Virus record (IMG/VR): IMGVR_UViG_3300030328_002343
Location: 1 to 36,266 of that record
Strand: one strand, 5' to 3'
DNA from: a virus
Length of the DNA stretch: 36,266 bases
The notes under the pieces: generated by a model
Databases searched by the model: none
Seen by the model: only the letters and a program-made list of their open reading frames with translations
Told to the model about the DNA's origin: nothing
Program-made: the position numbers and the translations under genes
Shown here: positions 10,207 to 23,679 of the stretch, in pieces
Numbering within the stretch: the stretch's first letter is position 1
Layout of the letters: every line of letters begins with the position of its first letter

Positions 10207-10329
10207 AAACGGCTTACGAGAATGCCCCTAGAAGCTCGTAAAATAAATTCTTTGATATAACTATCGCCTAAATATAGAACGTTTTGTAGGCATATCATTA
10301 AATGTCTCATTTCAATTTTATACAAAAAA

Positions 10330-10346: not shown

Positions 10347-10369
10347 CTTTTCGTTGGTTTTAGTGTATT

Positions 10370-11707
10370 TTATTCGTTGGAAGCGTTTAAACGGTGTCTA
10401 AATTTTTCCTTAGCTGCTTCTGGTGAATCTAATATTGAAGCACTATCTCCGTGGTATCCAACATCAAATTTACATGTTGTTCCATACCTGTTTTTAGCAA
10501 TAATAATCTGTTGACCAAATTGACCATGTTCTGCTTCTTCATATTCATATACATAAGGGTAATAGTTGAAGATTACGATTTCAGCGTCTTGCTCTAGATT
10601 ACCAGACTCAGCTAAGTCGCTGAGCCTTGGAATCTTATCTACACGATGCTCAATGTTCCTATTTAGTTGAGAGACTAATATAACTGAACAATCAAGTTCT
10701 TTTGCAAGCCATTTATATCTTCTTGTCACTTCTGCGATACGATGTCTAACTTCTCTGTTATCACGTGATGAAAACTCAATAAAACCAATGTGGTCATCTA
10801 TAATGACGTCTGGTCTTATCTTTTTAGCTTCGTTTATGCCTTCGTCTAGACTTCTTAAGTTATCAAATAAATGAAGCGATTTGTAATATTTTTTTATAAA
10901 AGTTAAACCTTTTTCTATTTCTTCTCTGTGGTCTGATGCATTGTTTCTCATTTGTTTATTAGGAACTTGTGTATGCATTGCTAGGAACTTTTTAACAATC
11001 TCTACTCTTGGCATCTCTCTGCTTATAAACATCACTTTCTTTCCATCAAGTATCATATTTTTTGTAATATTTAAAGCTAATGTACTTTTACCATTTCCTG
11101 GTCTACCAGCTATAATGCTAATTTCTCCTTTAGTCATACCGACAATAGCTCTATCTACTCTATCAATTCCAGTTTGTACTAAGTTTTTCTTAGCAAAGAT
11201 AGATTCTATAAGCTCATCATCTATACCTTCCATAGACTGATGTTCCATATTTATCATGTCTGTAAAATTCTCTGATATTTTTTCTAAATAATTAATGTCA
11301 GATGCTACATCTTTATATGATGTATCTTTCTCTATTCTGTCTTTAAATCCTACAATACGCTTCCATAGCTGTCTTCTTACATATAAATCATAAATTGTTT
11401 TACAATGTGTTTTGAAATTTCCAGTTGTTGCTATACCATCTAATAATCCAGTTAAATAATAAGTAAGCTTAAATCCTTTTTCTCCTAAAAAATTTGCAAC
11501 AGTAGTTAAGTCTATATCTTTATTAGATTTATGAAGATAATATAAAGCTCCCCAAATTTTTTCATGGTCTTCCATGTAGAATATTTTGCTAGTTGTTATA
11601 TATTGCATAGCAACCTGCATTAGCTCTGGTTCTTTTAGTATACAGCCTAAGACATCTTTCTCTGACATCCCACTATACATCTTTGATATTTCTATATTTT
11701 TATTCAT
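10370..11707 (-). CDS. DnaB-type replicative DNA helicase
   Basis: 445 residues, close to the usual DnaB length. It has an N-terminal helical domain (~15-110) and a RecA-type ATPase domain from ~178. The Walker A motif is GRPGNGKS (201-208), Walker B is VIIDDH (301-306), SQLNR lies at 346-350, and a DLAESGNLEQDAE segment at 364-376 precedes the DNA-binding loop region. The enzyme would unwind DNA 5'-3' at the phage fork. It starts after GAGGAG, 1 nt past the upstream stop. It is the last gene of the minus-strand block, ending at the shared terminator. The C-terminal HRLNASNE carries a copy of the dispersed GTTTAAAC palindrome. Confidence 0.93.
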   Translation of the reverse strand: MNKNIEISKMYSGMSEKDVLGCILKEPELMQVAMQYITTSKIFYMEDHEKIWGALYYLHKSNKDIDLTTVANFLGEKGFKLTYYLTGLLDGIATTGNFKTHCKTIYDLYVRRQLWKRIVGFKDRIEKDTSYKDVASDINYLEKISENFTDMINMEHQSMEGIDDELIESIFAKKNLVQTGIDRVDRAIVGMTKGEISIIAGRPGNGKSTLALNITKNMILDGKKVMFISREMPRVEIVKKFLAMHTQVPNKQMRNNASDHREEIEKGLTFIKKYYKSLHLFDNLRSLDEGINEAKKIRPDVIIDDHIGFIEFSSRDNREVRHRIAEVTRRYKWLAKELDCSVILVSQLNRNIEHRVDKIPRLSDLAESGNLEQDAEIVIFNYYPYVYEYEEAEHGQFGQQIIIAKNRYGTTCKFDVGYHGDSASILDSPEAAKEKFRHRLNASNE

Positions 11708-12058
11708 TTAGTTCTCCTCTAAATCTGGTGGCAAACTTTCTAATCTTTTCTTTTCTTTGATTAGTTTGCTTTCATACCTCTTATTTTCATTTCTTAATAT
11801 ACCTATAAAGTAATATACATCAAAACCCTTTTCATCTAATTCTTTCCTTTCCCATATATTTATACAATGGTTTATAATTTCATCTTCTATATCTTGACAA
11901 GATTTTAATAAAGTGTATGAAGTAAGTTGGTCTAAGGTAGTAAGGAATAAAGCGTTTAAACGCTCTAATGTATTGTCTTCTATATTATTTTTTAGCTTGT
12001 TAATCATCCTAGGATAATTTTTTAAGGTGTTTGACCACCCACAAGCTGGGCATCTCAT
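11708..12058 (-). CDS. Hypothetical protein with N-terminal CxxC, next to helicase
   Basis: 116 residues. The N-terminus MRCPACGW could be half of a zinc site; the rest is helical and charged (LIKEKKRLESLPPDLEEN at the end). It overlaps the upstream zinc-ribbon gene by 4 nt and abuts the DnaB gene. A helicase-loader or replisome role is possible from position, but there is no sequence signature for it. A GTTTAAAC copy falls in LERLNAL near residue 34. Confidence 0.7.
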   Translation of the reverse strand: MRCPACGWSNTLKNYPRMINKLKNNIEDNTLERLNALFLTTLDQLTSYTLLKSCQDIEDEIINHCINIWERKELDEKGFDVYYFIGILRNENKRYESKLIKEKKRLESLPPDLEEN

Positions 12059-12387
12059 TTAACAGCCTTACAAGGAAGTTCTTCTGGACAAGATTTATAA
12101 TCCATTGGAACTCTAGCACCTAAGAACTCCCTCATAGGAACTTTACCTTTAGGAAGTGTATAGAACCTCCAAGGTCTTTTGCATTCTGGACAGCGATAAG
12201 GCTGAAACTTTGATTTATTGCTGTAAGATACTTCATTTTTCTTACGCTTTTCTGACTCAATATATTCATCATCAAACCAGTCTTCACCAAAGTAATATTC
12301 AAGAGTTTCTTTAGAGTAAACAGACTCATAAATAAACAGCCAAACCTTCTCAACAAATTTACCTATCTTAGTCGTCACATACTTCAC
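12055..12387 (-). CDS. Zinc-ribbon protein, GTG start
   Basis: 110 residues. CPECKRPW (from about residue 70) followed by two later Cys (SCPEELPC) suggests a treble-clef or zinc-ribbon fold. The start codon appears to be GTG, inside the end of the upstream 49-aa gene. It overlaps the next gene by 4 nt. Together with its CPAC-starting neighbour it sits beside the helicase, so a replication accessory role is plausible but not shown. Confidence 0.65.
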   Translation of the reverse strand: MKYVTTKIGKFVEKVWLFIYESVYSKETLEYYFGEDWFDDEYIESEKRKKNEVSYSNKSKFQPYRCPECKRPWRFYTLPKGKVPMREFLGARVPMDYKSCPEELPCKAVK

Positions 12388-12517
12388 AGTTTGGATTCAC
12401 CTTTGATAGTTGCATTTGTTTACGTTTTTCTTCTTTGGATTGGTTTTTTTCTGTAGCTTCTATAATCTTTTTAGCTATAGATAGAATAGCTTCAATTTCA
12501 TGCCTATCTAAGACCAT
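12368..12517 (-). CDS. Small charged protein with C-terminal CxxC, 49 aa
   Basis: Starts at ATG 12517 after GGAGAAG with 6-nt spacing, and overlaps both neighbours. The first ~35 residues are a charged helix (ATEKNQSKEEKRKQMQ); the end is NCEVCDD. The tight ribosome site and coupled overlaps support a real gene. Function unknown. Confidence 0.6.
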   Translation of the reverse strand: MVLDRHEIEAILSIAKKIIEATEKNQSKEEKRKQMQLSKVNPNCEVCDD

Positions 12518-12731
12518 TGCTATCTTCTCCATTATCATAGCTGTATTCTGCTACAACCTTACCCTGTTTTGTTGATATATGTTTAGTTTTTATTGGATGA
12601 CCTTCGTTTCTTAAATCCCATATTCTGGCACTTAAACGAAAACAACCAAAACTCTCTAAAGCAGTTAATGGAGTAATACGCTCTCCATTTTTTAATGCTA
12701 CAAGTATCATATCATTTTGATTCATCGGCAT
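12504..12731 (-). CDS. Helix-turn-helix protein (HTH_39-like)
   Basis: About 75 residues from the start at 12731 (GAGG 9 nt upstream); an alternative start is 12725. The segment ITPLTALESFGCFRLSARI followed by WDLRNEGHPIKTK matches the small winged-helix family often listed as HTH_39 in phages, with the recognition helix around SARIWDLR. It is the clearest DNA-binding fold in the window, which makes it one candidate reader of the GTTTAAAC sites; that is inference. It overlaps the upstream gene by 20 nt. Confidence 0.75.
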   Translation of the reverse strand: MPMNQNDMILVALKNGERITPLTALESFGCFRLSARIWDLRNEGHPIKTKHISTKQGKVVAEYSYDNGEDSNGLR

Positions 12732-12972
12732 CTTTAACTTCCTCTTCATCTTTATTAAGTTCATTAATTACACTATTAACATAATTTGACGCAAGAAATC
12801 TTCTTTCATTAATTTGTTGCTCAAGATTTTGAATCTCTTGACCTAATTGATTAGCTCTAACAAATGACATCTGCCCTTCGTTACTTAGGTCACTCATAAC
12901 AAATTCTATTTCTTTGTCATTATGATTAATAATCATTTTTTGTTCTTCTTTTTTTTCTATTTTATCTACCAT
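12712..12972 (-). CDS. Small helical protein, 86 aa
   Basis: Start chosen at ATG 12972, which has GGAGGAG 6 nt upstream; an earlier TTG is unlikely. Residues ~40-75 form a Gln/Glu-rich helix or coiled coil (LGQEIQNLEQQINERR) and the C-terminus is acidic (DEEEVKDADESK). No family recognised. It is part of the overlapping early gene chain. Confidence 0.7.
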   Translation of the reverse strand: MVDKIEKKEEQKMIINHNDKEIEFVMSDLSNEGQMSFVRANQLGQEIQNLEQQINERRFLASNYVNSVINELNKDEEEVKDADESK

Positions 12973-12983
12973 ATACTCCTCCT

Positions 12984-13082
12984 TTATTTTTTGCGACAAG
13001 GTGATAGAAAGCGTTTAAACCCTCTAGCCACTCTATCCCAAAATGTTAACTCTGCTTTTACGTTTCTACTTTTCTTTTTCAT
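12984..13082 (-). CDS. Small basic protein, 32 aa
   Basis: Starts at ATG 13082 with GGAG upstream, overlapping the end of the nuclease-like gene. The product is strongly basic at both ends (MKKKSRNVK and SPCRKK) with an aromatic middle (FWDRVARGFKRF). The GTTTAAAC copy at 13013-13020 is read as Phe-Lys. The short length limits certainty. Confidence 0.5.
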   Translation of the reverse strand: MKKKSRNVKAELTFWDRVARGFKRFLSPCRKK

Positions 13083-13395
13083 GCGTAAACTCCTTTATAG
13101 TTGCAATTAAACTCAAGTAATAGTCTTGTGACATTATAGCCAAATCTTTACCCCTATCTTCACCAACAAATTGAACGTGAATTTCGTCAATAGGTTTTAA
13201 ATGTTCAGCTAATTTTTTTCTTTTTTTACATTGGACATAAATAGAATCTTCAATAACCATATCTACTTCTTGATGTAGACCTCTACTTCTTCCATCAGAA
13301 CCCCATGTTCTTTCTGCTTTCAAATCAAATTTTTCTGCTTTAGAAACACACTTTCTTTCATAATAAGTTCCTCTTAATTTATTCTTTGCTGGCAT
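13066..13395 (-). CDS. PD-(D/E)XK nuclease, Hjc/Mrr-like Holliday-junction resolvase candidate
   Basis: Start chosen at ATG 13395 (AGGAAG upstream), giving 109 residues beginning MPAKNKLRGTYYERK. The pattern RG-x3-ERK, then RTWGSDGRSRG, then EVDMV-x6-VQCKKRK fits small phage and archaeal Hjc-like enzymes. Asp of EVDMV and the QxK motif are the metal-site residues; Gln replaces the usual Glu, as in Mrr-type members. A role in resolving or trimming recombination intermediates is consistent with the neighbouring annealing protein, SSB and exonuclease. Confidence 0.7.
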   Translation of the reverse strand: MPAKNKLRGTYYERKCVSKAEKFDLKAERTWGSDGRSRGLHQEVDMVIEDSIYVQCKKRKKLAEHLKPIDEIHVQFVGEDRGKDLAIMSQDYYLSLIATIKEFTHEKEK

Positions 13396-13636
13396 CTTCA
13401 AATCTTCCTTTCCTGAATTGTTCAATCCATGTCTTTTCATATTTTTTAGGAGCTGATAGACCTGAAAATATCCACCATGCTCTACCATGCTCTTCATGAG
13501 ATTTTTTTTGTCTTAACATACCCTCTTTACTATAAGGGTCAATAGATTTAAAATTTTTATTTCTTTCCATAATACTTTCTTTAACTTTAGACCCATGTTT
13601 ATCATGCCAGCTTTTTTCTTTATTTGTTAATTTCAT
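13379..13636 (-). CDS. Hypothetical Lys/Trp-rich protein, 85 aa
   Basis: A basic, polar protein (NKEKSWHDKHGSKVKE at the N-terminus, EKTWIEQFRKGRFEDASKE at the end) with several Trp. It starts inside the end of the upstream 37-aa gene with AAGGAG in place and overlaps the nuclease gene by 17 nt. No family recognised; possibly nucleic-acid binding from its composition. Confidence 0.65.
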   Translation of the reverse strand: MKLTNKEKSWHDKHGSKVKESIMERNKNFKSIDPYSKEGMLRQKKSHEEHGRAWWIFSGLSAPKKYEKTWIEQFRKGRFEDASKE

Positions 13637-13733
13637 CTATTTCTCCTTCAATTTTATCTAATTCAATTATAATTCTTTTTGTAGCTAAATAACAACCATA
13701 TAAAACTACAATTAATACAAGATAATCTCCCAT
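13620..13733 (-). CDS. Small single-span membrane protein, 37 aa
   Basis: Starts at ATG 13733 with a perfect AAGGAG upstream. Residues ~4-17 (YLVLIVVLYGCYLA) form one hydrophobic segment followed by a charged helix (TKRIIIELDKIEGE). It overlaps the next gene. This is typical of phage micro-proteins that act at the inner membrane, but no function can be assigned. A structured RNA element lies directly upstream (13750-13818). Confidence 0.65.
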   Translation of the reverse strand: MGDYLVLIVVLYGCYLATKRIIIELDKIEGEIDEINK

Positions 13734-13749
13734 GTTTTTCTCCTTATTA

Positions 13750-13818
13750 AATTTGCGTGAGAATCTACAATGAGATGTCAGTCGTCTGGTAAGAGGTATA
13801 AGACTCCCACGCTAAATT
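13750..13818 (-). other. Structured RNA element in the leader of the 37-aa membrane protein
   Basis: GCGTGAGAATCT (13755-13766) pairs with AGACTCCCACGC (13801-13812): 12 continuous pairs including one G-T wobble. AATTT/AAATT (13750-13754 with 13814-13818) extends the stem past one bulge. The 34-nt apical part holds a small CAG/CTG hairpin. On the transcribed minus strand this lies 17 nt before the start of the membrane-protein gene and downstream of the SSB gene. It could be a processing site, translational switch or stability element. A second inverted repeat (TTAGGCTAG 13819-13827 with CTAGCCTAA 13875-13883) sits between it and the SSB stop. Confidence 0.6.
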
Positions 13819-13888
13819 TTAGGCTAGTTTTTTGTTTAACTTATATATTAATATACGGAAAATATTCAGTTAGCCTAGCCTAAGCTTG

Positions 13889-14413
13889 TTAAAATGGCAA
13901 ATCTCCATCATCCATTAAAGATTCTTTACTGCAAAGAGTTGCTTTAGTTATTGTTTTAACTCTTGGAGTTTTCATGTCGTTTCCTTCTCTTCCAACCCAC
14001 TCTTCAATAACAATTTCAACGTTAAATAGATAGCGTTTAAACGCCTCAACATCTACTTCTGGCAATAGAATCTTACCATCTTTCTCTTGAACCATACTCA
14101 TCATTTCTAATAGTGCATAATATCCTGCGTTACTTCCAGGATTTTCCTGCAAATCAGGGTACTTAGCTGGGTCTGGTTTCTTAAATCTAAAGACACCTTT
14201 ATGTTTTACTTTACTTCCATCAACATTAAATACAGGTTCATATATATCTGCTAGATACTTTCCTTGAACCTTTATGTCTTTTTTAATATTAAGTTCGTGT
14301 ACTGCGACATCTTCATACGTTCCTTCTTTGACTGAACTTAAAGAACTATCTTCTTTAGGTTCATACCAAGCATCTTCTCCGAAAACATCATTAAAATCAT
14401 CATTACTTATCAT
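13889..14413 (-). CDS. Single-stranded DNA-binding protein (SSB-like)
   Basis: 174 residues. It ends in DDGDLPF, the acidic plus hydrophobic tail typical of SSB proteins, which recruits partner proteins. The body is beta-rich (residues ~35-80, DIKVQGKYLADIYEPVF) and plausible as an OB fold. It follows the annealing-protein gene with an 11-nt overlap and has GGAGG before its ATG. Expected role: coat ssDNA in phage replication and recombination. A GTTTAAAC copy (14035-14042) is read as AFKR near residue 127. Not a close bacterial SSB by eye; a phage DUF669-type protein is the alternative. Confidence 0.75.
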   Translation of the reverse strand: MISNDDFNDVFGEDAWYEPKEDSSLSSVKEGTYEDVAVHELNIKKDIKVQGKYLADIYEPVFNVDGSKVKHKGVFRFKKPDPAKYPDLQENPGSNAGYYALLEMMSMVQEKDGKILLPEVDVEAFKRYLFNVEIVIEEWVGREGNDMKTPRVKTITKATLCSKESLMDDGDLPF

Positions 14414-15026
14414 CTTTTGCCTCCTTTTTAGGTTTTTTCTTTTTAAGCTGTTCTACATAGCCTTCAAAATTATTTGTATTCAGTTTTTTATTTCTTATTG
14501 CTAACTGAATGCTTTCTATGAAAGCTTTATCTCTACCTTTCAACAAAGTCATCAAATAATCATTTTGTTCTTTACTTATCTGATTAGGTTTATCTTCTTC
14601 TGGTAAATCTTCTCCCCTATAAATATATAGAGCAAGACCAAATAAAGCAAAACATTTTACCAAACATCTTTTAATAGAGTTGTTAACCTGTGTTGCCGTT
14701 GGTTTTGGAATAGCTTGATTGCGATTGTCCATGATAGCATGAATTTCTGTTCTAGTTATTCCATCAATAGTTACAGACACTTTAACAAAACATCCAGCAT
14801 CTGTTATCATATATGGAGATTTAACCCATCCCCAAGCTTCTGTGTTCTTTGCCTCAGAGGGATGGTCAAACTCATGAGTTTCCCAAGTAGTATCTGGGTA
14901 TTTTGTTAATACATATTGCACTGCATCACTCCAAGATAGATAGTCATAACTACCTTTCTTTTCTTTAAATTCATTTACATTTATTTTATTAAGTGTATCA
15001 AACACTGATAGTTTCTTAGTTGGCAT
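14403..15026 (-). CDS. Single-strand annealing protein, DUF1071 (Sak3 type)
   Basis: Start chosen at ATG 15026 (GAGGAGG, 6-nt spacing), giving 207 residues. YDYLSWSDAVQYVL near the N-terminus, TRTEIHAIMDNRNQAI, and KRCLVKCFALFGLALYIY followed by GEDLPEED are the hallmarks of the DUF1071 annealing proteins. The C-terminus is Lys-rich. The family anneals complementary ssDNA in phage recombination and repair. Its neighbours (SSB downstream, Fe-S nuclease upstream) make a complete exonuclease/annealase/SSB module. Confidence 0.88.
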   Translation of the reverse strand: MPTKKLSVFDTLNKINVNEFKEKKGSYDYLSWSDAVQYVLTKYPDTTWETHEFDHPSEAKNTEAWGWVKSPYMITDAGCFVKVSVTIDGITRTEIHAIMDNRNQAIPKPTATQVNNSIKRCLVKCFALFGLALYIYRGEDLPEEDKPNQISKEQNDYLMTLLKGRDKAFIESIQLAIRNKKLNTNNFEGYVEQLKKKKPKKEAKDDK

Positions 15027-15237
15027 TGTAGTCCTCCTCATATAGTTCAATAAATTTTTCTACACTGACCCAGCTATCTGAATTACCTTCGTGTACCATT
15101 GGTATTCCAGCTATATCTGGTCTCATTGTAAATTCTCCTAAGTCATTACTATTTGCCCAATCCATTAACATAAGGGCAAAGTCCTCTGACCTCACAATAT
15201 TTTTCACATTTTTTTCCGTTCCAAGTTTCTTCATCAT
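15016..15237 (-). CDS. Small acidic protein whose start is overprinted on the nuclease gene
   Basis: 73 residues from ATG 15237, or 72 from the adjacent in-frame ATG at 15234, which is better spaced from AGGAGG. Its first ~29 codons lie inside the 3' end of the Fe-S nuclease gene in another frame (stop at 15149). The product is acidic and polar (EFTMRPDIAGIPMVHEG, FIELYEEDYNAN). No family recognised. Coupled upstream of the annealing protein with an 11-nt overlap. Confidence 0.65.
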   Translation of the reverse strand: MMKKLGTEKNVKNIVRSEDFALMLMDWANSNDLGEFTMRPDIAGIPMVHEGNSDSWVSVEKFIELYEEDYNAN

Positions 15238-16027
15238 TACACCTCCTAGGTATTGTTTTATTATTTAAATGTTTTAAAAGAGCATCTCTCTTAGCTGTAA
15301 AGTACGAAACAATTTCCTTATTGTCAACAATAGGTATATCAACAAAGTAAATATTTTTATCTACCCCTCTAGAAACAGCTGAGTGAGTACCTGCGTCTCT
15401 TATGTTCATTTGTAGTTTCATTGCTTTAACTTTATGTCCTTTTTTCTCTAATAAATATCTATACATATTAACTTGATATAGCCAGTCTCCAAAGTCTGCT
15501 CTACTTTCATCTCTATGAAATACCTTAACCTGTTTAAACGCTCCCTTGTTCCCCCAAGCTCCAGACTTTTTATATCTTGCTCCACTTGGGTCTGGCATCA
15601 TTACATGAGTCATACCTAATACTTTAGATGCTTTAAAACTACCTGTGTTTTTATAGTCAATTAAGGTTTCAGTCTCTTTATCGTAAAAGTCTAAAATTCC
15701 AGTAATATCTAATCCTTCTAATTTTTCTTCTTGTATAGAGCTTTCATCAAGCTCTTGGCTTTCTAAATGCAAGTGATGAATAGTTCCCATAACAGCAAAT
15801 GCCATATCCTGTGGGTCAACATAATAGTCTTTAACTCTTTTAAGGTAAGCCTCACACGTTCCAGACAATAGCTCTGTCGTGCTTGGTGGTCTGTCTTTAG
15901 GTCTTTGGTCTGACATCATCTTTAGAGTAGCTACGCTCATGCAACGCTCTGACATACGACATTTTTTAAGACACCGTTTAAACGTTGCTGTATCTCCATC
16001 TGGGCAAATAAATCCTATTATTGACAT
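15149..16027 (-). CDS. PD-(D/E)XK exonuclease with Fe-S cluster cysteines (Cas4/RecB-like)
   Basis: Start set at ATG 16027, which has AAGGAG; an upstream in-frame ATG at 16054 has none. 292 residues. The nuclease core is LDITGILDFYDKETETLIDY followed by KNT: Asp of GILD and the Asp-x-Lys of DYK. Cysteines near the N-terminus (8, 19, 23, 29) and a C-terminal set in RRCNDEETW...KKCEKYC...GLC resemble the Fe-S RecB-family nucleases. It probably resects DNA ends for the annealing protein downstream. Two GTTTAAAC copies lie in it (15532, 15976), both read as Phe-Lys. Confidence 0.82.
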   Translation of the reverse strand: MSIIGFICPDGDTATFKRCLKKCRMSERCMSVATLKMMSDQRPKDRPPSTTELLSGTCEAYLKRVKDYYVDPQDMAFAVMGTIHHLHLESQELDESSIQEEKLEGLDITGILDFYDKETETLIDYKNTGSFKASKVLGMTHVMMPDPSGARYKKSGAWGNKGAFKQVKVFHRDESRADFGDWLYQVNMYRYLLEKKGHKVKAMKLQMNIRDAGTHSAVSRGVDKNIYFVDIPIVDNKEIVSYFTAKRDALLKHLNNKTIPRRCNDEETWNGKKCEKYCEVRGLCPYVNGLGK

Positions 16028-16042
16028 AAAACTCCTTATAAT

Positions 16043-16104
16043 AAAGCTGTCCAAACTTTTGCTGATTAGTGGATGAAAAGTTTTGCCACAAACACGACAG
16101 CTTT
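16043..16104 (-). promoter_or_regulatory. Structured leader upstream of the recombination operon
   Basis: Two nested inverted repeats: AAAGCTGTC (16043-16051) with GACAGCTTT (16096-16104), and inside it AAACTTTT (16053-16060) with AAAAGTTT (16076-16083). On the minus-strand transcript this forms a two-stem structure ending 15 nt before the ATG of the nuclease, next to its AAGGAG (16032-16037). It could control translation of the first recombination gene. It might also be a protein-binding site on DNA. Confidence 0.5.
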
Positions 16105-16286
16105 TGTTAAATTTTTTTCTGGAGCAGAAAAGTAGCCAACCTATATTTACTTATAATCTCTTATTAAAGTATTAAAAAGGTAAAAGTATACAGGATTAAT
16201 TACCTGCGACACCCCTTTAAAATGCCTTTATTTTTTTTTAAGTAACTCTACTCCAGATAAAAGAAAGTTAAAAATAAATAAACGAA

Positions 16287-16310
16287 AAGGCAAGAAATTA
16301 ATCTTGCCTT
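16287..16310 (-). terminator. Intrinsic terminator/attenuator
   Basis: A perfect 9-bp stem, AAGGCAAGA/TCTTGCCTT, with a 6-nt loop. On the minus strand it is followed by TTCG and a T-rich stretch. It would end transcripts from the promoter at 16375-16403 and from genes further upstream. Read-through would reach the nuclease operon. Confidence 0.7.
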
Positions 16311-16368
16311 CTCTAACAAGGAGTCCTAAAATGAAATACATTTTAAGATGTTAGTATGATTATACCAA
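16287..16368 (-). ncRNA. Candidate short RNA or attenuated leader (about 80 nt)
   Basis: Bounded by a promoter at 16375-16403 and the terminator at 16287-16310, with no minus-strand reading frame of note between. The predicted transcript starts near 16368. On the opposite strand there is an AAGGAG followed by a 7-codon frame (16331-16354), judged not to be a gene. Either a small regulatory RNA or the attenuated leader of the recombination operon. Structure-based inference only. Confidence 0.4.
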
Positions 16369-16374
16369 CGCTGA

Positions 16375-16403
16375 ATCTTAACACTATAACTATAGTGTGT
16401 CAA
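16375..16403 (-). promoter_or_regulatory. Promoter with palindromic operator in the spacer
   Basis: -35 TTGACA (16398-16403), 17-bp spacer, -10 TAAGAT (16375-16380), all on the minus strand. The region 16381-16398 is a perfect inverted repeat, ACACTATA-AC-TATAGTGT, filling the spacer: the classic place for a repressor to block RNA polymerase. Confidence 0.65.
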
Positions 16404-16410
16404 GAAATAT

Positions 16411-16602
16411 TTACAAAAAACATTTATGTCCTTTACTCTCATCATAATCTATATCATAGTCTTGCATTAACTTTACTATGGCATCTTCCTTGCATTTAGC
16501 TACGTATTGAGCTGTAAAAGAGTAGTCTTTTTTTGGAATTATAAAGATAAAAGAAGATAGTTTACCCTCTGTAATCTTTTTATAGGTTTTAATATCAAGC
16601 AT
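16411..16602 (-). CDS. Hypothetical protein, 63 aa
   Basis: Starts at ATG 16602 with GGAG 6 nt upstream. A short alpha/beta protein: ITEGKLSSFIFIIPKKDYSF, then a helix with AQYVAKCKEDAIVKLMQDY. No family recognised. It has its own promoter candidate (16643-16672) and ends just before the operator-promoter at 16375-16403. Confidence 0.65.
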   Translation of the reverse strand: MLDIKTYKKITEGKLSSFIFIIPKKDYSFTAQYVAKCKEDAIVKLMQDYDIDYDESKGHKCFL

Positions 16603-16642
16603 CTTAACTCCTCATATTGTTATATTTATAGTCTCTCATTTA

Positions 16643-16672
16643 AATATACCTATAAAACTCTTTTAAAATCAA
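16643..16672 (-). promoter_or_regulatory. Promoter with flanking inverted repeat
   Basis: -35 TTGATT (16667-16672), 18-bp spacer, -10 TATATT (16643-16648), minus strand. TATACCTA (16645-16652) overlaps the -10, and its inverted copy TAGGTATA (16695-16702) lies 50 bp upstream, a possible operator pair for looping repression. GTTTAAAC at 16711 follows. Confidence 0.5.
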
Positions 16673-16721
16673 CTATTATTTTTATATGGTAATGTAGGTA
16701 TAGAAAGACCGTTTAAACGCC

Positions 16722-16985
16722 TTATTTCTTATATAAGTCTTGCAGTTTAATTAGCTTTTCTAGAAAGTCTCTGCAAGTAAATCCAATGTCTAGAGTAATA
16801 GTTTTTAATCCTTTCTCATCAGTATTTATACAATAGAACAGCTCTTGTGTTATCTTTGGTATTCCATTTTTGTCTAACATACTTTCTATCTTATCGCCAT
16901 CCATGTCTTCTTTTGTGCATAAACTATTGTTATATTCTACATCTTCTAACATAGTTTCATACGCTATCTGTTTCATTTTTCCCAT
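16722..16985 (-). CDS. Hypothetical protein, 87 aa
   Basis: Start chosen at ATG 16985 (GGAGG with 6-nt spacing; the ATG 6 nt earlier overlaps that site too closely). An acidic alpha/beta protein with a central FYCINTDEKGLKTITLDIGF strand region and a C-terminal helix. No known family by eye. The initiation region (16975-16997) is duplicated almost exactly before the next upstream gene. A GTTTAAAC site lies 3 nt past the stop. Confidence 0.65.
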   Translation of the reverse strand: MGKMKQIAYETMLEDVEYNNSLCTKEDMDGDKIESMLDKNGIPKITQELFYCINTDEKGLKTITLDIGFTCRDFLEKLIKLQDLYKK

Positions 16986-17151
16986 TTTCATCCTCCTTAT
17001 CTAAATCATTTTCGTATATAAAATCTGCCCAGTCTTTACACTTACTACACAAAGCTATAATTTCATCATCCTCTCCTACTGGCTCACTTGCTGGGCTACT
17101 GGTGCAACAGCTAGAAAGCAATTCTCCTCTATCTTCATCCATTTTTCCCAT
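16957..17151 (-). CDS. Small zinc-binding protein, 64 aa
   Basis: Start at ATG 17151, with the same initiation sequence as the next gene. ELLSSCCTSSPASEPVGEDD followed by ALCSKCKDW gives a CC...CxxC set, the pattern of small phage zinc-ribbon proteins. The C-terminus is acidic. Overlaps its downstream neighbour by 29 nt. Probably a small nucleic-acid- or protein-binding accessory factor; role unknown. Confidence 0.6.
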   Translation of the reverse strand: MGKMDEDRGELLSSCCTSSPASEPVGEDDEIIALCSKCKDWADFIYENDLDKEDENGKNETDSV

Positions 17152-17305
17152 TTTCATCCTCCAATCTAGGATTATATTTATCTCTTATTCTCCTAATAGA
17201 TGATATGCTATTATAGAACATAAACTCAAATCCTAATTTTTCTAACTCATCAATCTTTTTTCCTATTTCTTCTTGTATTTCAAACGCTTTTTCTGCTTTA
17301 CTCAT
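17135..17305 (-). CDS. Small helical protein, 56 aa
   Basis: Starts at ATG 17305 with GGAGGAAAAATG initiation, the same cassette used by several neighbours. The sequence is a charged helix (AFEIQEEIGKKIDELEKLGF) followed by SSIRRIRDKYNPR. It overlaps genes on both sides. No family recognised. Confidence 0.6.
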   Translation of the reverse strand: MSKAEKAFEIQEEIGKKIDELEKLGFEFMFYNSISSIRRIRDKYNPRLEDENGKNG

Positions 17306-17532
17306 TTTTCCTCCTTGTATTTAATTTGATTTATAGGTTGTATTAGAAAATCATCTATAGGAAGTTCGTCATCTTTATCTCTTTGACTATTCCAATCCTT
17401 AATCCATTTTTTAGGATTGTTTGTAGTGCAGAAATATTCATCTTCATATACTTTAATGTCTCTGCATTTCTTTAAATACACATTAAATAGTCCTGTGTTT
17501 AAATCCACTTCTGCTTTTTCTAAATATTTCAT
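17302..17532 (-). CDS. Hypothetical protein, 76 aa
   Basis: Starts after GGAGGAAAAATG and overlaps its downstream neighbour by 4 nt. Mixed polar sequence with Trp and Tyr (KKWIKDWNSQRDKDDELPID). Possibly a short beta domain at the N-terminus (VDLNTGLFNVYLKKC). Not recognised. Confidence 0.65.
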   Translation of the reverse strand: MKYLEKAEVDLNTGLFNVYLKKCRDIKVYEDEYFCTTNNPKKWIKDWNSQRDKDDELPIDDFLIQPINQIKYKEEK

Positions 17533-17732
17533 TTTTCCTCCTGTTTATTATGTTTGTAAAAAACTATTCCAGTTGAATAATCAATTTCTTCTACTCCCAC
17601 AGATTCAAAATCTGGTGCAGTATCTATTTCTTCTCTGTCTTTGTCGCTTAAACTGCTTAAATACGACCAATCAGTATGACCGTAATTATCTCTACAATAA
17701 TCGTCTATATATTCTGTAATATCTTTACTCAT
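17529..17732 (-). CDS. Small acidic protein, 67 aa
   Basis: Start set at ATG 17732 because GGAGGAAAAATG lies there; the longer frame to 17804 has no ribosome site. Acidic and Tyr-rich (DITEYIDDYCRDNYGHTDW). Part of a chain of genes with 4-nt overlaps. Function unknown. Confidence 0.65.
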   Translation of the reverse strand: MSKDITEYIDDYCRDNYGHTDWSYLSSLSDKDREEIDTAPDFESVGVEEIDYSTGIVFYKHNKQEEK

Positions 17733-17932
17733 TTTTCCTCCTTTGTAAGTTGTTCTATAAGTTTTTTTTGCATTGATGCTGGCAATTCTGTGGTCTTGAC
17801 CCACTCATCACCATCATGTATTACCTCTTCATCTTTAGCACTTTCAGAATAAATAATATAATCTTCATTATCAAATTTTAGAAAATTATTATCTTTATCT
17901 TTCAGTAAATAATCTGTGTCATATAATTTCAT
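17729..17932 (-). CDS. Small acidic protein, 67 aa
   Basis: Starts after AAGGAGGAAGT. The first half is beta-like with repeated short strands (YLLKDKDNNFLKFDNEDY), the second an acidic helix. It lies directly downstream of the GroES gene with a 4-nt overlap, so the two are co-translated. No family recognised. Confidence 0.65.
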   Translation of the reverse strand: MKLYDTDYLLKDKDNNFLKFDNEDYIIYSESAKDEEVIHDGDEWVKTTELPASMQKKLIEQLTKEEK

Positions 17933-18198
17933 ACTTCCTCCTTGATTATAGCCATTACATCTAACTCTCTAAATATAAAGAATTCTTCATCATCAAACAA
18001 GAACTTAGTTGCTACGTGATTTTGAAACATAACATAGTCTCCTTTAGAAACATGTTTTGTTTTTTCCCCAACAGCCATTATAACTCCTCTAGTTTGCAAT
18101 TCTTTGTTTTGTGATGATATAAGAATTCCACTATCTGTAGTCTCTTTTATTGCATCTGGTTTTAATACTATTCTATCCCCTATTGGTGTTAACTTCAT
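17929..18198 (-). CDS. GroES/Cpn10-like co-chaperonin
   Basis: 89 residues, slightly shorter than bacterial GroES. MKLTPIGDRIVLKPDAIKE opens as in Cpn10; TTDSGILI is the mobile-loop region that contacts GroEL; GDYVMFQNHVATKFLFDDEEFFIFRELDVMAII matches the C-terminal beta barrel. Phage versions (for example T4 gp31) replace host GroES to fold the capsid protein in host GroEL. No GroEL gene is in the window, so host GroEL would be used. Confidence 0.88.
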   Translation of the reverse strand: MKLTPIGDRIVLKPDAIKETTDSGILISSQNKELQTRGVIMAVGEKTKHVSKGDYVMFQNHVATKFLFDDEEFFIFRELDVMAIIKEEV

Positions 18199-18506
18199 TT
18201 TTCCTCCAATCTATGTGGACTATCAAATTCATGTTTAAAATCGCAATCTACATCTTCTTGCTCTCCATCAATTATCATTTCTATATGTTTGCTTTTTATA
18301 CCCATTGCCTCTAACATGGTAACCCCGTTTAAACGCAGTTTCTGAGATTCCCATTTGTTAAGTTTTTCTATTAATGATATTGCTAACTCTTTACGACCTC
18401 TAACAATATCTTTAGTCTCGTCTGTGATACAATCTATGTCTGCGTCACTTACTAGCTCATCATCAAGCCAGTCTTTCATCTGTTGTATTATTAATTTTTC
18501 GTTCAT
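18195..18506 (-). CDS. Hypothetical acidic protein, 103 aa
   Basis: A helical acidic protein (DWLDDELVSDADIDCITDE; later IEMIIDGEQEDVDCDF). It overlaps GroES by 4 nt at its 3' end and starts inside the end of its upstream neighbour, so it is co-translated. The GTTTAAAC at 18327-18334 is read as LRLNG. No family recognised. Confidence 0.68.
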   Translation of the reverse strand: MNEKLIIQQMKDWLDDELVSDADIDCITDETKDIVRGRKELAISLIEKLNKWESQKLRLNGVTMLEAMGIKSKHIEMIIDGEQEDVDCDFKHEFDSPHRLEEK

Positions 18507-18889
18507 TTCTTATCTCCTTTTTTAAGTTTTAACTTTTCAGTTTTAATTTGTAAATAGTTTATCATATGACCATGAAGAAGTCTTTCCTGCCCCTCCAAAA
18601 ATTCGCTATCAGTTATTGTAGAATAACTATTTTTTTGTATTTCATTTCCAGACAAAACATTTAACCTTTGTTTCATTACCTCTGTATCATTGCAATAGTT
18701 ACAACATCTACCTTTATTTACTGGTTCTGAACTATGTCCTTTTGTCCAGACTGGTTTTCCATCTTTATATAAAACATCAAGTTCATCATAGCAAATAGAG
18801 CAAGTTAAAACAGGTTCTTTAATAAGGTCTCTGTTCCAACATCCCCATCCATATCTTATCTCGTTATGAAATATTGTTTCTTTACTCAT
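18503..18889 (-). CDS. Zinc-binding phage protein (CxxC ... CCxxC), 128 aa
   Basis: Contains LTCSICYDELDVLYKDGKPVW followed by TKGHSSEPVNKGRCCNYCN, a conserved layout seen in many phage early proteins: two Cys pairs around a GH..EP..GRCC motif, presumably one zinc site. The C-terminal third is a charged helix. Function in the family is not known to me. Confidence 0.7.
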   Translation of the reverse strand: MSKETIFHNEIRYGWGCWNRDLIKEPVLTCSICYDELDVLYKDGKPVWTKGHSSEPVNKGRCCNYCNDTEVMKQRLNVLSGNEIQKNSYSTITDSEFLEGQERLLHGHMINYLQIKTEKLKLKKGDKK

Positions 18890-19022
18890 TATTGTTTAAT
18901 CCGTTTAAACGCTCTGTTTTATTTTTCTTTTCGTGTAAATCCTTAATAGTTTTTCTTATCTTAATAGCGTTCTCGTTATATTCTTTTAACGCTTTTTCAA
19001 ATCGCATGTTTATTCTTTTCAT
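18882..19022 (-). CDS. Small basic helical protein, 46 aa
   Basis: Starts at ATG 19022 with GGAGG and 6-nt spacing; the end overlaps the next gene. A single charged helix (RFEKALKEYNENAIKIRK) followed by TERLNGLNNNE, whose RLN is encoded by a GTTTAAAC site (18903-18910) close to the stop. Function unknown. Confidence 0.6.
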   Translation of the reverse strand: MKRINMRFEKALKEYNENAIKIRKTIKDLHEKKNKTERLNGLNNNE

Positions 19023-19023
19023 A

Positions 19024-19275
19024 TTAAGCCTCCTTGTTTAAACGTTTTACATCTTCTTCTTCTGCCATCCTATTGATAGCCATTTTTTTTCTATCTGTTA
19101 TTTCAAATCCAAAATCAAGACATCCCTCTTGAGTTAATCCGTTAGAACAAATAACTTCTGGTGTTCCTAAATTAACATCTTCTTCATCAGTCCACTCTAC
19201 TCCAACAATATAGAATCCAATAGGATTATCGTCTGGAACATTTTTTAATAGTGTTTTTAGCTCTTTTGCTTTCAT
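19024..19275 (-). CDS. Hypothetical protein, 83 aa
   Basis: Start at ATG 19275, after GAGGAGGCGTAAT, the same initiation sequence as its upstream neighbour. Contains NPIGFYIVGVEWTDEEDVNL, then EVICSNGLTQEGCLDFGFEI, a compact beta-rich domain; the end KRLNKEA carries a GTTTAAAC site. Not recognised. Confidence 0.68.
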   Translation of the reverse strand: MKAKELKTLLKNVPDDNPIGFYIVGVEWTDEEDVNLGTPEVICSNGLTQEGCLDFGFEITDRKKMAINRMAEEEDVKRLNKEA

Positions 19276-19276
19276 A

Positions 19277-19453
19277 TTACGCCTCCTCATCTTTTTTTAG
19301 ATTCCATTGATTTTGTAGGTCTCTTGCTATTTCGTCTAGTTTTTCTAGACTCAATGATTGACTTAAAAACAAATCTAGAAAGTTTTCTAAATCTGCCCTT
19401 AGTTCGTTTGCTATTTGCTCAGCTGTGTTTGATGTATTATAAACTTGTTTCAT
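19277..19453 (-). CDS. Small helical protein, 58 aa
   Basis: Starts at ATG 19453 after AAGGAGGCGTAAT. Helical and acidic (AEQIANELRADLENFLDLFL, then LEKLDEIARDL). First gene after the promoter at 19500-19529. No family recognised; small size and coupling suggest a protein-interaction role, unproven. Confidence 0.62.
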   Translation of the reverse strand: MKQVYNTSNTAEQIANELRADLENFLDLFLSQSLSLEKLDEIARDLQNQWNLKKDEEA

Positions 19454-19476
19454 ATTACGCCTCCTTGTTTTGTTCT

Positions 19477-19529
19477 GCTAGCTATTGCTAGCTCTAGTTA
19501 GTTTAGTTATTATGTTATCAACTTGTCAA
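19477..19529 (-). promoter_or_regulatory. Promoter with GCTAGC repeat at the start point
   Basis: -35 TTGACA (19524-19529), 18-bp spacer, -10 TAAACT (19500-19505), minus strand, overlapping the 3' end of the ADP-ribosyltransferase-like gene. GCTAGC-TATT-GCTAGC (19477-19492) lies where transcription would start and may be an operator. It would drive the chain of small genes from 19453 down through GroES. Confidence 0.6.
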
Positions 19530-20009
19530 GACTTTTTTTTCCATGACATATTTTGGGGGAACAAATACTTCTTGTTCAAGTTCCCAATACGCCTGGAAGT
19601 TAGCCACGTTTAAACGACCTTGATATACTACTGGCGACTTATCTTTGTTCACACTTGCAAACCTATTTGCAAACCAGAAAGCTCTCTTCTTATCTAATGT
19701 CCAGCTATACCCATGCTCATGGTCTCCCAGAGTTCCTCTGTAGACAACAATTTCTTCATTGTCCATCACCAGCTTTTCAAACTCTGTATACTCTGACGTG
19801 TTCATTGAATAGCTCGCCATATCGTAGTGATACTCCAGTATCTCCTGTGCTACCTTATCTGTCATCAAAGGATAAACTTTATCAATGTCTTGGTAGCTCT
19901 GTTTAAACGCTGTCCAAAATATATCTTCGCCTATCTTGTTCTGAGCTATGTCCTCAAACAGAAGAATCATACCCTCTGTGCTATCATATTTATCTAGTAT
20001 TTCTTGCAT
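19518..20009 (-). CDS. Putative mono-ADP-ribosyltransferase (R-S-ExE type)
   Basis: 163 residues. The C-terminal two thirds show the order of an arginine-type ADP-ribosyltransferase: Arg91 in VVYRG, Ser-Trp-Thr at 102-104 (YSWTLDKKRAFWFANRF), and Glu145-Gln-Glu147 in ELEQEVFVPP. In this fold these bind NAD and catalyse transfer to a host protein; T4 Alt and Mod are phage examples that modify RNA polymerase. The gene has its own promoter (20043-20071) and AAGGAG. Assignment is from motifs only; the spacing is shorter than in toxins. Two GTTTAAAC sites lie within. Confidence 0.6.
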   Translation of the reverse strand: MQEILDKYDSTEGMILLFEDIAQNKIGEDIFWTAFKQSYQDIDKVYPLMTDKVAQEILEYHYDMASYSMNTSEYTEFEKLVMDNEEIVVYRGTLGDHEHGYSWTLDKKRAFWFANRFASVNKDKSPVVYQGRLNVANFQAYWELEQEVFVPPKYVMEKKVLTS

Positions 20010-20042
20010 ATCTAACTCCTTGTTAAGTGTTGATTACGACTA

Positions 20043-20071
20043 ATAGTAATGAATCCTAATGCCAATGTCAA
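20043..20071 (-). promoter_or_regulatory. Early promoter for the ADP-ribosyltransferase-like gene
   Basis: -35 TTGACA (20066-20071), 17-bp spacer, -10 TACTAT (20043-20048), minus strand. It shares TTAGGATTCATTA and the leader CACTTAACAAGGAGT with the promoter at 21416-21444. A GTTTAAAC site sits exactly 17 bp upstream of the -35 (20089-20096). Confidence 0.72.
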
Positions 20072-20108
20072 CATTTATTATTGACACCGTTTAAACGCCT
20101 TGTAAAAA

Positions 20109-20134
20109 AGCCCCAAAGTTTTATCCCTGGGGCT
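20109..20134 (-). terminator. Intrinsic terminator
   Basis: A 7-bp stem, AGCCCCA/TGGGGCT, with a 12-nt loop; on the minus strand it is followed by TTTTT. It ends the transcript of the membrane-protein gene at 20143 just before the next promoter. Confidence 0.82.
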
Positions 20135-20142
20135 ATCGCACA

Positions 20143-20427
20143 TTACAAGGAAAATACTTTTTGATTTTTCTCTATCTTTAATACCTTTCTAATTACGCTT
20201 ACTAGTGCCATACTAAAAAGCATAACAATAGAGAACCAACAAAAGAACAATAACCACCCCTCAATCATATAGTGAGCGTCATTAGTTAAATATCTATGTT
20301 TATGATTTCCTAATATCAATGTTAAAATCACACAAAATATTTGTGTCCTAAAGAACATTATAGCTGATGCTTTATTAATCTCTGTTAAGTTTTCTTTTAT
20401 TTCATGTCTGCATGTTAATTTCTTCAT
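20143..20427 (-). CDS. Two-span membrane protein, 94 aa
   Basis: Two hydrophobic segments: residues ~22-40 (AIMFFRTQIFCVILTLILG) and ~57-79 (GWLLFFCWFSIVMLFSMALV), with charged ends. Starts with GGAGGAG and an ATGA overlap with the upstream gene. It lies in the early block, so a host-membrane modifying role (such as superinfection exclusion) is more likely than lysis, but neither is shown. Confidence 0.72.
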   Translation of the reverse strand: MKKLTCRHEIKENLTEINKASAIMFFRTQIFCVILTLILGNHKHRYLTNDAHYMIEGWLLFFCWFSIVMLFSMALVSVIRKVLKIEKNQKVFSL

Positions 20428-21383
20428 ATACTCCTCCTTTTTTCTTCTTCATCTTGGTTATGAATTTGTTTTAAATGTTGATTTAATCTATCTAGACAGC
20501 TAGAAAGATAAGAGTGTTCAAATGCTCTATAAGTTTTACTCTTATAACCATTTCTTTTGTTATAAGCCTCAAACTCTTTTGTGTAAGACTGATAATTCTC
20601 AATTAGCCTAACGTAACTACTGGAAAACTCTCTTTTTTGGTCAAGAGTTCCATGATTAATATAATCTAAGCATATAGATTCAGCTTTTTTAAACTTATTG
20701 TAAATATTCATTGGGTCGTTTAAACGCTCTAAGAACCTATTGTATCTTTCTTCCATCATCTTAGACTTATAGTCCTTTTCGCTAATAAACTTAATAGCAT
20801 TATATTTTTCTTTCACTCTTTTATTTCTTTTATCAGACGCTTTCATATAAGGCATTGATGGGTCTAAAGATAGATGTAAATATTTAACTTTCAATCCATC
20901 TTCATAACAAGCCTCTTTAATACCTTTAAGGCTTTTTAGTCCAAACAGATTTTTCCCCCAGCTCTCTTTTCCTCCGTAGTTATTGTATTTTACTTTTCTA
21001 GCTGATTTGATTCTCTCTGGGTGCTTTCCTCTTCCGTAAGCAAATATCCAGCTGGTTTCATACCAGAGAGGCTTTCCGTCTTGAAAGATATTTAAGCATC
21101 CGTTCTCTATGGTAGCAATACGCTCTTGCCAATTATCTGTTCGTCTCTTGTATACTTTATATTCTATATGGTTTTGTGCTAAGACAAAATCAATACCACT
21201 CTTAGACGGGGAGTCGTTTAAACGTAAGTGTTCATCTTTTACTTTATTCCACTCTATCCCAAGCTCTCTAGCTCCGTAAGATACAAAGTTTTTTGGTAAT
21301 CCTTTTTCTCTTGCTCTGATAGGTTCTGTCTTAGTGTTCCAAGTTGACCAATCAAAAACTATATTATTTAATGTGTTATTCAT
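20424..21383 (-). CDS. Hypothetical protein, 319 aa, weak PD-(D/E)XK-like motif
   Basis: Largest early gene without a clear family. Residues ~60-80 contain SGIDFV-x6-IEYKVYKRR, an Asp-x(n)-Glu-x-Lys arrangement that might be a nuclease core; the rest is Tyr/Lys/Trp-rich and helical, with the C-terminal third probably coiled. It has the best promoter in the window upstream (21416-21444), so it is likely made early and in quantity. Two GTTTAAAC copies, both read as RLN. The nuclease idea is weak. Confidence 0.7.
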   Translation of the reverse strand: MNNTLNNIVFDWSTWNTKTEPIRAREKGLPKNFVSYGARELGIEWNKVKDEHLRLNDSPSKSGIDFVLAQNHIEYKVYKRRTDNWQERIATIENGCLNIFQDGKPLWYETSWIFAYGRGKHPERIKSARKVKYNNYGGKESWGKNLFGLKSLKGIKEACYEDGLKVKYLHLSLDPSMPYMKASDKRNKRVKEKYNAIKFISEKDYKSKMMEERYNRFLERLNDPMNIYNKFKKAESICLDYINHGTLDQKREFSSSYVRLIENYQSYTKEFEAYNKRNGYKSKTYRAFEHSYLSSCLDRLNQHLKQIHNQDEEEKRRSI

Positions 21384-21415
21384 ATTTCACTCCTTGTTAA
21401 GTGTTAATGTTTACG

Positions 21416-21444
21416 ATTATAATGAATCCTAAAACAAGTGTCAA
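21416..21444 (-). promoter_or_regulatory. Perfect sigma70-type promoter
   Basis: TTGACA (21439-21444), 17-bp spacer, TATAAT (21416-21421), minus strand: full consensus. The spacer end (TTAGGATTCAT) and the untranslated leader are shared with the promoter at 20043-20071. GTTTAAAC at 21462-21469 is 17 bp upstream of the -35. Confidence 0.88.
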
Positions 21445-21463
21445 TACTTTTCTTTGACCTCGT

Positions 21464-21682
21464 TTAAACGCCCTCTTGCATTTGTTCCAGTTGTTTATTT
21501 ATTGTGTCCAGAATAAGCTCTGCCTCTATGTTTTCAGTTTCAAGAATAGTATATTCTTCTCGTTCTTCGTCATAATATCTGCCATCATAACCTTTAAACT
21601 CTCTTTCCATTTTTCTTTCGTTGCATCTAATAGTAGTTTCGCAACTCTTTTTAATACTCATTACTATTGATTTATAATCCAT
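21464..21682 (-). CDS. Hypothetical acidic protein, 72 aa
   Basis: A charged helical protein (MEREFKGYDGRYYDEER, then LETENIEAELILDTINKQLE). Its stop codon TAA is the centre of a GTTTAAAC site (21462-21469). Starts after AAAGGAG. No family recognised. Confidence 0.65.
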   Translation of the reverse strand: MDYKSIVMSIKKSCETTIRCNERKMEREFKGYDGRYYDEEREEYTILETENIEAELILDTINKQLEQMQEGV

Positions 21683-21718
21683 TTTATTCTCCTTTGTTTA
21701 GTGTGTTTAAACGCTGTC

Positions 21719-22279
21719 TTACAACAGCCTAGTTCCCTCGCCAAATTTATCTTCTACTAACTCATTGATGCTTTTGACTAAATCCCTGTCAAATAAATAG
21801 CTATCATAACTACCATTGTCTAGTTTTTTTCTAGCATTATTAATAGTATTATAGTCTCTGAAAAATAGGTCAGCCTCATCCATTAGTTTTATTGTGTCGC
21901 TTATGACATCACTCATGCTGTCAAAATCTCCTCCATTGGCGTAAAAACCAATAACATAATATCCTTCCATGTCTTTGTGAAATCCATTTTTTTTGTCGTG
22001 CGCCCATTGATAACTATCTGGCTCTTTTACCAAGTGAAATCCAGCTGTTAGCTCTCTGTTATAAAAAGGTATTGGTTTTACTTTGTTTTCTTCGCCAGAA
22101 AAACTATCATAGTTGCACAAATCTCTGCTGTATGCAAATAAGTGTTCATTAGCCCAAGGGTGTCCTGGAGGTAAAGCGATATAGCCATTTCCCCATCCTT
22201 TACAGTTATTATTTTCTCTAATTATCCAGTAATATGTTGTTCCGTCTGCTTTTGTTACTTTGTTCCATTTTTGTTCCAT
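21719..22279 (-). CDS. Hypothetical phage protein, 186 aa
   Basis: The N-terminal part has WIIRENNNCKGWGNGYIALP followed by PGHPWANEH, a conserved-looking GNGYxALPPGHP motif found in phage proteins of unknown function, then a compact alpha/beta domain and acidic helices. Starts after AAGGAG. A GTTTAAAC site lies 6 nt beyond the stop. Role unknown. Confidence 0.7.
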   Translation of the reverse strand: MEQKWNKVTKADGTTYYWIIRENNNCKGWGNGYIALPPGHPWANEHLFAYSRDLCNYDSFSGEENKVKPIPFYNRELTAGFHLVKEPDSYQWAHDKKNGFHKDMEGYYVIGFYANGGDFDSMSDVISDTIKLMDEADLFFRDYNTINNARKKLDNGSYDSYLFDRDLVKSINELVEDKFGEGTRLL

Positions 22280-22280
22280 C

Positions 22281-22439
22281 TTATTCTCCTTTGTTTTTGT
22301 TAATACAACATTTTTTATATTTTAATCCACTACCACAATTACATTTTTCATTTCTACCTTGTTGCTTTTTAGGTCTAAATAATTGTTCGTAATACTTTTT
22401 ATAGCCACCTGCTAATCTAATTCTTTCGCCCTTAGTCAT
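22281..22439 (-). CDS. Small SEC-C zinc-motif protein, 52 aa
   Basis: Residues 33-45, CNCGSGLKYKKCC, are a complete SEC-C zinc-binding motif as at the SecA C-terminus and in many small phage and bacterial proteins. The N-terminal half is basic. The start overlaps the upstream stop (TAATG), with GGAG 10 nt before. SEC-C motifs bind ribosomes or SecB in known cases; the target here is unknown. Confidence 0.72.
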   Translation of the reverse strand: MTKGERIRLAGGYKKYYEQLFRPKKQQGRNEKCNCGSGLKYKKCCINKNKGE

Positions 22440-23677: not shown

Positions 23678-23679
23678 TG

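Follow-up and report, generated by a model that had tools for sequence, protein, structure and literature searches.

A tandem-promoter unit appears to head the recombination operon of an uncultured phage: a first promoter (P1) would make a short RNA, the terminator of this RNA includes, within one arm, the -35 box for a second promoter (P2), and an exposed linker in the RNA would act in trans. We give this reading as a whole a probability of about 0.6. The two promoters, the RNA fold and the overlap between terminator and -35 box are the parts supported by comparison with related phages.

The DNA analysed, here called the window, is a stretch of 36,266 nt that forms part of a 39,184-base virus record with genes for DnaB, an exonuclease, a Sak annealing protein, portal, terminase and head proteins. 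Relatives were sorted into identity classes of 87-92% (group A, within which clade 2 is the set around L003), 66-70% (group B) and 45-54% (a further group). An earlier, sequence-only reading of the window had picked out a promoter, an operator and a terminator at this place; it missed two extra hairpins, the CUCCUU linker and the second promoter that is built into the terminator. The features are as follows.

16411 to 16602, minus strand: upstream gene of 63 aa, with its stop 7 nt before the P1 -35 box; similar text lies upstream of the unit in relatives
16375 to 16403, minus strand: putative promoter P1, TTGACA (16403-16398) and TAAGAT (16380-16375, extended -10 with TG) on either side of a 17-nt spacer
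16381 to 16398, no strand assigned: inverted repeat ACACTATAGTTATAGTGT, candidate operator in the P1 spacer, recurring at P1 in group A
16280 to 16372, minus strand: predicted short RNA of about 85-93 nt, its start (16372-16368) estimated from the -10 box and its end from the terminator
16350 to 16369, minus strand: hairpin 1, GUUGGUAU-AAUC-AUACUAAC, with compensatory changes in relatives
16324 to 16348, minus strand: hairpin 2, UCUUAAAAUG-UAUUU-CAUUUUAGGA, with compensatory changes in relatives
16314 to 16323, minus strand: single-stranded linker CUCCUUGUUA between hairpin 2 and the terminator, unpaired in the fold and complementary to Shine-Dalgarno sequences
16284 to 16313, minus strand: predicted intrinsic terminator, GAGAAGGCAAGA-UUAAUU-UCUUGCCUUUUC, with a 3' arm that is invariant in group A
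16265 to 16293, minus strand: putative promoter P2, -35 TTGCCT (16293-16288) within the terminator 3' arm, 17-nt spacer, -10 TAACTT (16270-16265)
16119 to 16256, minus strand: 5' leader of the exonuclease mRNA, structured, with a closing stem formed by CTGGAGTAG (16256-16248) and CTGCTCCAG (16127-16119)
15149 to 16027, minus strand: PD-(D/E)XK exonuclease (PF12705, phrog_2139), first gene of the recombination operon, ATG at 16027 with a Shine-Dalgarno sequence
14403 to 15026, minus strand: Sak-type single-strand annealing protein (PF06378, E 7e-42) in the same operon as the exonuclease, ATG at 15026

The unit recurs in related phages

Relatives were collected by an exonuclease protein search, which gave 16 loci, and by an alignment of ten exonucleases, which gave 39; L004, L009 and L017/L095, whose contigs end before the unit, were dropped before counting. 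P1, a terminator containing CTTGYCT and P2 occurred together in 10/10 testable group A sequences (the window included) and in 9/9 testable group B sequences, counts that are not independent, the relatives being few and related. The promoter boxes, the ACTCCTT linker and the terminator were nearly invariant across the ten group A sequences. In the group at 45-54% identity, the terminator was found in 0 of 18 sequences and a P1-like match in 6 of 18.

A phage collection held no close record, either by DNA or by exonuclease protein, and the best phage match of the terminase reached 26% identity. The exonuclease alignment had no match in 397 genomes of one phylum. When viral sequences were scanned for the pattern of the unit, 11 stretches were returned, 10 of which lay on contigs already found by the exonuclease protein search. 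The stretch in L021 was judged a chance match when its sequence was read, and 47 scattered matches in bacterial genomes of unrelated organisms were read as chance from their list.

Dispersed motifs also mark these lineages. GTTTAAAC occurs 30 times in the 39,184-base record compared with about 1.5 expected, 21 of these as CGTTTAAACG; its sites are found in both coding and non-coding DNA and span 2262-28337, mostly 9990 to 28337. Every one of the ten group A records is enriched for it, at 9-30 copies, and the nine group B records have 0-2 copies each. The group B phages G010-G018 (L135-L149) are rich in GTGCTC/GAGCAC, a lineage-specific dispersed motif present at 39-86 copies per record compared with 4.5-14.5 expected.

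P1 is conserved and carries a candidate operator in group A

The TTGACA-17-TAAGAT promoter described by the sequence-only reading is present where it had been placed, but on the minus strand. Its form, TTGACW-17/18-TANNNT, was found in all 19 unit-bearing upstream regions (the window and groups A and B). Promoter-like matches as such are not above chance in this AT-rich stretch (62 compared with 74.2 +/- 8.3 in shuffles), a count that would suit ordinary AT-rich sequence with consensus matches and no transcript. Against this explanation, two promoters, their spacing, the fold and the linker are all conserved in relatives; RNA folding and this conservation lift the unit above chance, and we regard a chance origin as very unlikely.

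A perfect inverted repeat had been reported to fill the P1 spacer, and we found it at 16398-16381 as ACACTATA-GT-TATAGTGT, with 8-bp arms. The site is unique within the window at up to 3 mismatches, and at least one such inverted-repeat site arose by chance in 28 of 100 shuffled windows. Its symmetry is weakly above chance, in that shuffling the 14 middle bases reached it in 2 to 95% of trials, depending on the sequence; part of this symmetry arises because the ACA of TTGACA and the TGT of the extended -10 belong to the promoter boxes. In relatives, ACAC[CT]N8-10[AG]GTGT was present at P1 in 10/10 group A genomes, with one stray copy in G003; none of the 9 group B records has it at P1, though G010 and G018 carry strays elsewhere. 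In group A the spacer repeat is a plausible candidate for a protein-binding site.

The P1 transcript would fold into a conserved structure

Folded as 16278-16368, the predicted ~90-nt RNA forms three hairpins at -30.3 kcal/mol, compared with -12.2 +/- 3.0 in shuffles (z -6.07, with 0/200 shuffles as low), and six group A relatives gave z values of -4.6 to -6.8. Covariation of the stem in relatives had been proposed as a check on the short RNA, and between lineages hairpins 1 and 2 do stay paired through both-side base changes: each has 4 positions of this kind and zero broken pairs, counted on 6 distinct sequences that were placed by hand. For the terminator, whose arms fall out of register when the window is set beside the other sequences, both-side changes were left uncounted. 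The linker ACTCCTT, which includes the CUCCUU of the RNA, was invariant in 10/10 group A sequences.

In group B, RNA length is different, and a shared fold is confined to the last hairpin and the terminator. L087, the sole group B RNA folded, gave a weak z of -2.7, and inspection by eye showed no linker resembling CUCCUU in some members of group B, such as L015 and L114.

The region had been described as lacking a coding frame. This holds for frames of at least 50 aa, but a 37-codon ATG frame without a Shine-Dalgarno sequence begins inside hairpin 2. On reading the relatives, this minus-strand frame was not conserved, clade 2 (L003) having no ATG there, and neither was a small plus-strand frame (MKYILRC) that we also considered; both were rejected as genes. 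Rfam 15 gave 0 matches at the gathering score in the window and in 14 relatives, and solely matches far below the gathering score when E values up to 1 were allowed.

Taken together, the joint conservation of P1 (19/19), the hairpins with their compensatory changes and the terminator supports the short RNA proposed by the sequence-only reading, and P1 probably makes this RNA as a separate transcript. At the sequence level the unit has the own promoter and own terminator, with no coding frame of at least 50 aa between them, that mark a phage trans-acting small RNA, while conserved secondary structure, a further mark of such RNAs, is present in group A and weak in group B.

A probable second promoter has its -35 box within the terminator arm

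The terminator, described earlier as a perfect 9-bp stem, proved to be a minus-strand stem (16313-16284) of nine Watson-Crick pairs, one G-U pair and two further pairs around a loop of 6. Terminator-like sites are enriched in the stretch (15 compared with 7.5 +/- 2.8 in shuffles). The U tract of the window terminator is interrupted (CGTTTATTTATTTTT); it is better in relatives. Within group A, the 3' arm UCUUGCCU is without variation and the 5' arm drifts between A and G via G-U pairs, as a constraint on the 3' arm at the DNA level would predict.

This arm contains the putative -35 box of P2. TTGYCT-17-TANNNT was found in all 19 upstream regions, or in 14/14 distinct sequences once identical downstream stretches had been merged for the spacing test. 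The spacing was noticed by eye before testing; 20,000 shuffles of the downstream bases, each free to use its best spacing between 12 and 24, reached at most 7 and never 14. The 14 cases are not independent because the sequences are related, yet their spacers have widely diverged. The 19 phage records contain 85 terminator-like sites; P2 was present at 16/17 of those with a CTTGYCT arm and at 0/68 others, the single miss being the reverse-strand reading of the G010 unit. The window P2 is itself weak by consensus (TTGCCT, TAACTT). These comparisons make it probable that the recombination operon is served by a promoter of its own, P2, which starts inside the terminator. What is unusual about the unit is this conserved sharing of sequence between terminator arm and -35 box: a literature search by title or abstract start found no description of a terminator/-35 overlap in phages, which is weak evidence of absence, as some queries came back empty.

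These observations bear on the other possibility raised by the sequence-only reading, a regulated leader or attenuator of the recombination operon. In such an arrangement, as at lambda pR'-tR' or in the greA leader with GraL, P1 would drive the operon; the terminator would halt most transcripts, and passage of polymerase would be enabled by an antiterminator or ligand. Promoter, terminator and operon do lie on the same strand and in the same order in all 19 upstream regions, the consensus scan lists no same-strand promoter of at least 9/12 between terminator and gene (two weaker scan sites are not displayed), and GraL, in the E. coli greA leader, is reported as a dual-action case (PMC6829880). 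The conserved P2, with its -35 box inside the terminator arm, sits downstream, so that the operon need not rely on read-through, an argument drawn from promoter sequences rather than transcripts; upstream same-strand genes could also provide read-through, and by eye neither the fold nor the alignment offers an alternative partner for the terminator arm. With a promoter of its own, as the operon appears to have, a discrete small RNA is more likely than an attenuated leader, and we consider the leader unlikely.

The overlap could also serve transcriptional interference, with a functionless RNA and with P1 firing to occlude or feed P2 as polymerase stops on the P2 -35/-10 region. The exact overlap of terminator and P2 in 14/14 distinct sequences is consistent with this, as is the in vitro finding that RNA polymerase can slide after termination and reinitiate at a nearby promoter (PMC6978380). 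Hairpins 1 and 2 and the linker look constrained in group A, however, and interference alone needs no such constraint; we consider pure interference, with a functionless RNA, quite unlikely.

The putative P2 precedes a structured exonuclease leader

The predicted P2 start (near 16258) lies just ahead of the exonuclease leader, and the mRNA made from it would start with the 5' foot of the closing stem. Both-side changes were present at 3/22 pairs of the leader consensus fold. The closing stem is kept in group A; L014 combines a closely similar inner part with another closing stem. In L087, L088 and L094, the exonuclease ATG follows the P2 -10 box by 5-6 nt, placing the predicted mRNA start within a base or two of the ATG, which fits a leaderless exonuclease mRNA in these three relatives.

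Several further structures and genes were observed around the unit. Hairpin-like inserts before the exonuclease Shine-Dalgarno sequence differ between phages, with AGCTGTC..GACAGCT in the window (16102-16045, minus strand) and GGTATAGGCGTAT..ATACGCCTATC in L002 and L009. L088 and L094 carry a second hairpin, GAGAGGCGAG..CGCCTCT, which resembles a copy of the terminator stem and is located upstream of P1, just after the upstream gene. The 63-aa upstream gene of the window had no Pfam or PHROG match. The early block encodes a Cpn10-like co-chaperonin (17929-18198, minus strand; PF00166, E 1e-18).

The linker may pair with early ribosome-binding sites

The linker sequence CUCCUU is complementary to Shine-Dalgarno sequences. 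With G-U pairs included, the longest matches to the window linker lie before the genes at 20009 (13 nt) and 21383 (12 nt), and these genes rank first and second of 65 in duplex energy with the linker. Near-repeat blocks that are 78-79% alike precede the same two genes (19990-20099 and 21364-21472).

Linker-target tests used 15 of the 19 records, G011, G012, G013 and G018 being left out for want of a clear linker, and linker tails were shuffled for 11 of these 15. In double-centred data from the 15 records, ribosome-binding sites on the same strand (early genes) preferred the linker of their own lineage, while sites on the opposite strand (late genes) did not, a contrast that partly reflects the stronger Shine-Dalgarno sequences of early genes. 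Shuffled tails paired more weakly with same-strand genes on average in 10/11 genomes, with G010 neutral and single-genome fractions of 0.03-0.25. Nearly every Shine-Dalgarno sequence would form pairs with the CUCCUU core. For in-register pairing beyond the Shine-Dalgarno sequence, with lineage motifs that were chosen after inspection, the own linker was best in the window lineage only; the cognate linker was worst in clade 2, and another linker did better in group B. Exact covariation between seed and target in clade 2 was not found beyond general Shine-Dalgarno matches.

One candidate target was Gene X, which encodes a 50-aa membrane-type protein (the window homolog starts at 13733, minus strand) and was the rank-1 target in 7/7 clade-2 genomes. 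It failed the cross-lineage test: the window and L010 targets preferred the clade-2 linker over their own, and the L010 linker was worse than most shuffles (1785/2000 as low). The CCCACGC in the Gene X leader belongs to a local hairpin. No conserved single linker target survived testing. A leader hairpin, GCGTGGGRGTCTTATACCTC..CATCTCAT..AGATTCYCACGC, precedes Gene X at 13812-13755 (minus strand) and is conserved in the window, L010 and clade 2; it looks like a further structured RNA. We rate a trans action of the short RNA on early genes as possible to likely, with the own-lineage preference and the shuffled tails speaking for it and the in-register and cross-lineage tests against it.

Discussion

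In the model that we favour, P1, perhaps controlled in group A by a protein that binds the spacer inverted repeat, would produce a discrete ~90-nt RNA in which two hairpins are followed by an exposed linker with CUCCUU and then by an intrinsic terminator. At the DNA level, the terminator 3' arm would double as the -35 box of P2, so that the end of the short RNA coincides with the beginning of the recombination promoter, and P2 would start the structured exonuclease mRNA, apparently leaderless in some relatives. We infer that the linker may cover the Shine-Dalgarno sites of early genes in trans, damping their translation, and that P1 traffic may affect P2 because polymerases would terminate on top of it.

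A relay would couple these effects: the polymerase that releases the short RNA would terminate on the P2 -35 box and be handed over to P2 while the RNA covers early ribosome-binding sites, turning recombination on and early translation down, with linker and sites co-evolving by lineage. Sliding of polymerase in vitro (PMC6978380) makes a hand-over from P1 to P2 a reasonable idea by analogy. The complete relay is, in our estimate, decidedly doubtful.

A terminator arm that is also the conserved -35 box of the next promoter would allow polymerase occlusion or hand-over between adjacent units to be tested in a natural setting. If the linker does silence early genes, the unit would act as an RNA timer of the switch from early functions to recombination in this uncultured group of phages.

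Small phage RNAs transcribed from promoters of their own are already known, and lambda OOP and P22 sar are phage antisense RNAs that block ribosome-binding sites. In the lambda pR'-tR' 6S leader, a strong promoter, a short RNA and an intrinsic terminator are followed by an operon on the same strand. The window unit shares this order of promoter, short RNA, terminator and operon but differs in that its operon has its own conserved promoter, which overlaps the terminator. The c4 RNA of phages P1/P7, which blocks a ribosome-binding site, is likewise a phage-encoded short RNA proposed to pair around such a site (PMC12197685). Unlike c4-type antisense RNAs, the window RNA is not antisense to one neighbouring gene, has several early-gene sites as candidates and matches no Rfam family.

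GraL, for which both cis and trans roles are reported, is a short RNA with an intrinsic terminator upstream of greA, and the window RNA would similarly end at an intrinsic terminator upstream of a gene (PMC6829880). Two overlapping promoters are described as driving greA with GraL in its leader, in contrast with the window, where the second promoter lies inside the terminator (PMC6829880). Lastly, RNA polymerase that has released its RNA by intrinsic termination can, in vitro, slide along and restart at a promoter in the vicinity, and the window similarly has a terminator a short distance upstream of a promoter on one stretch of DNA (PMC6978380). That work used designed templates in vitro, whereas the window presents a conserved natural overlap (PMC6978380).
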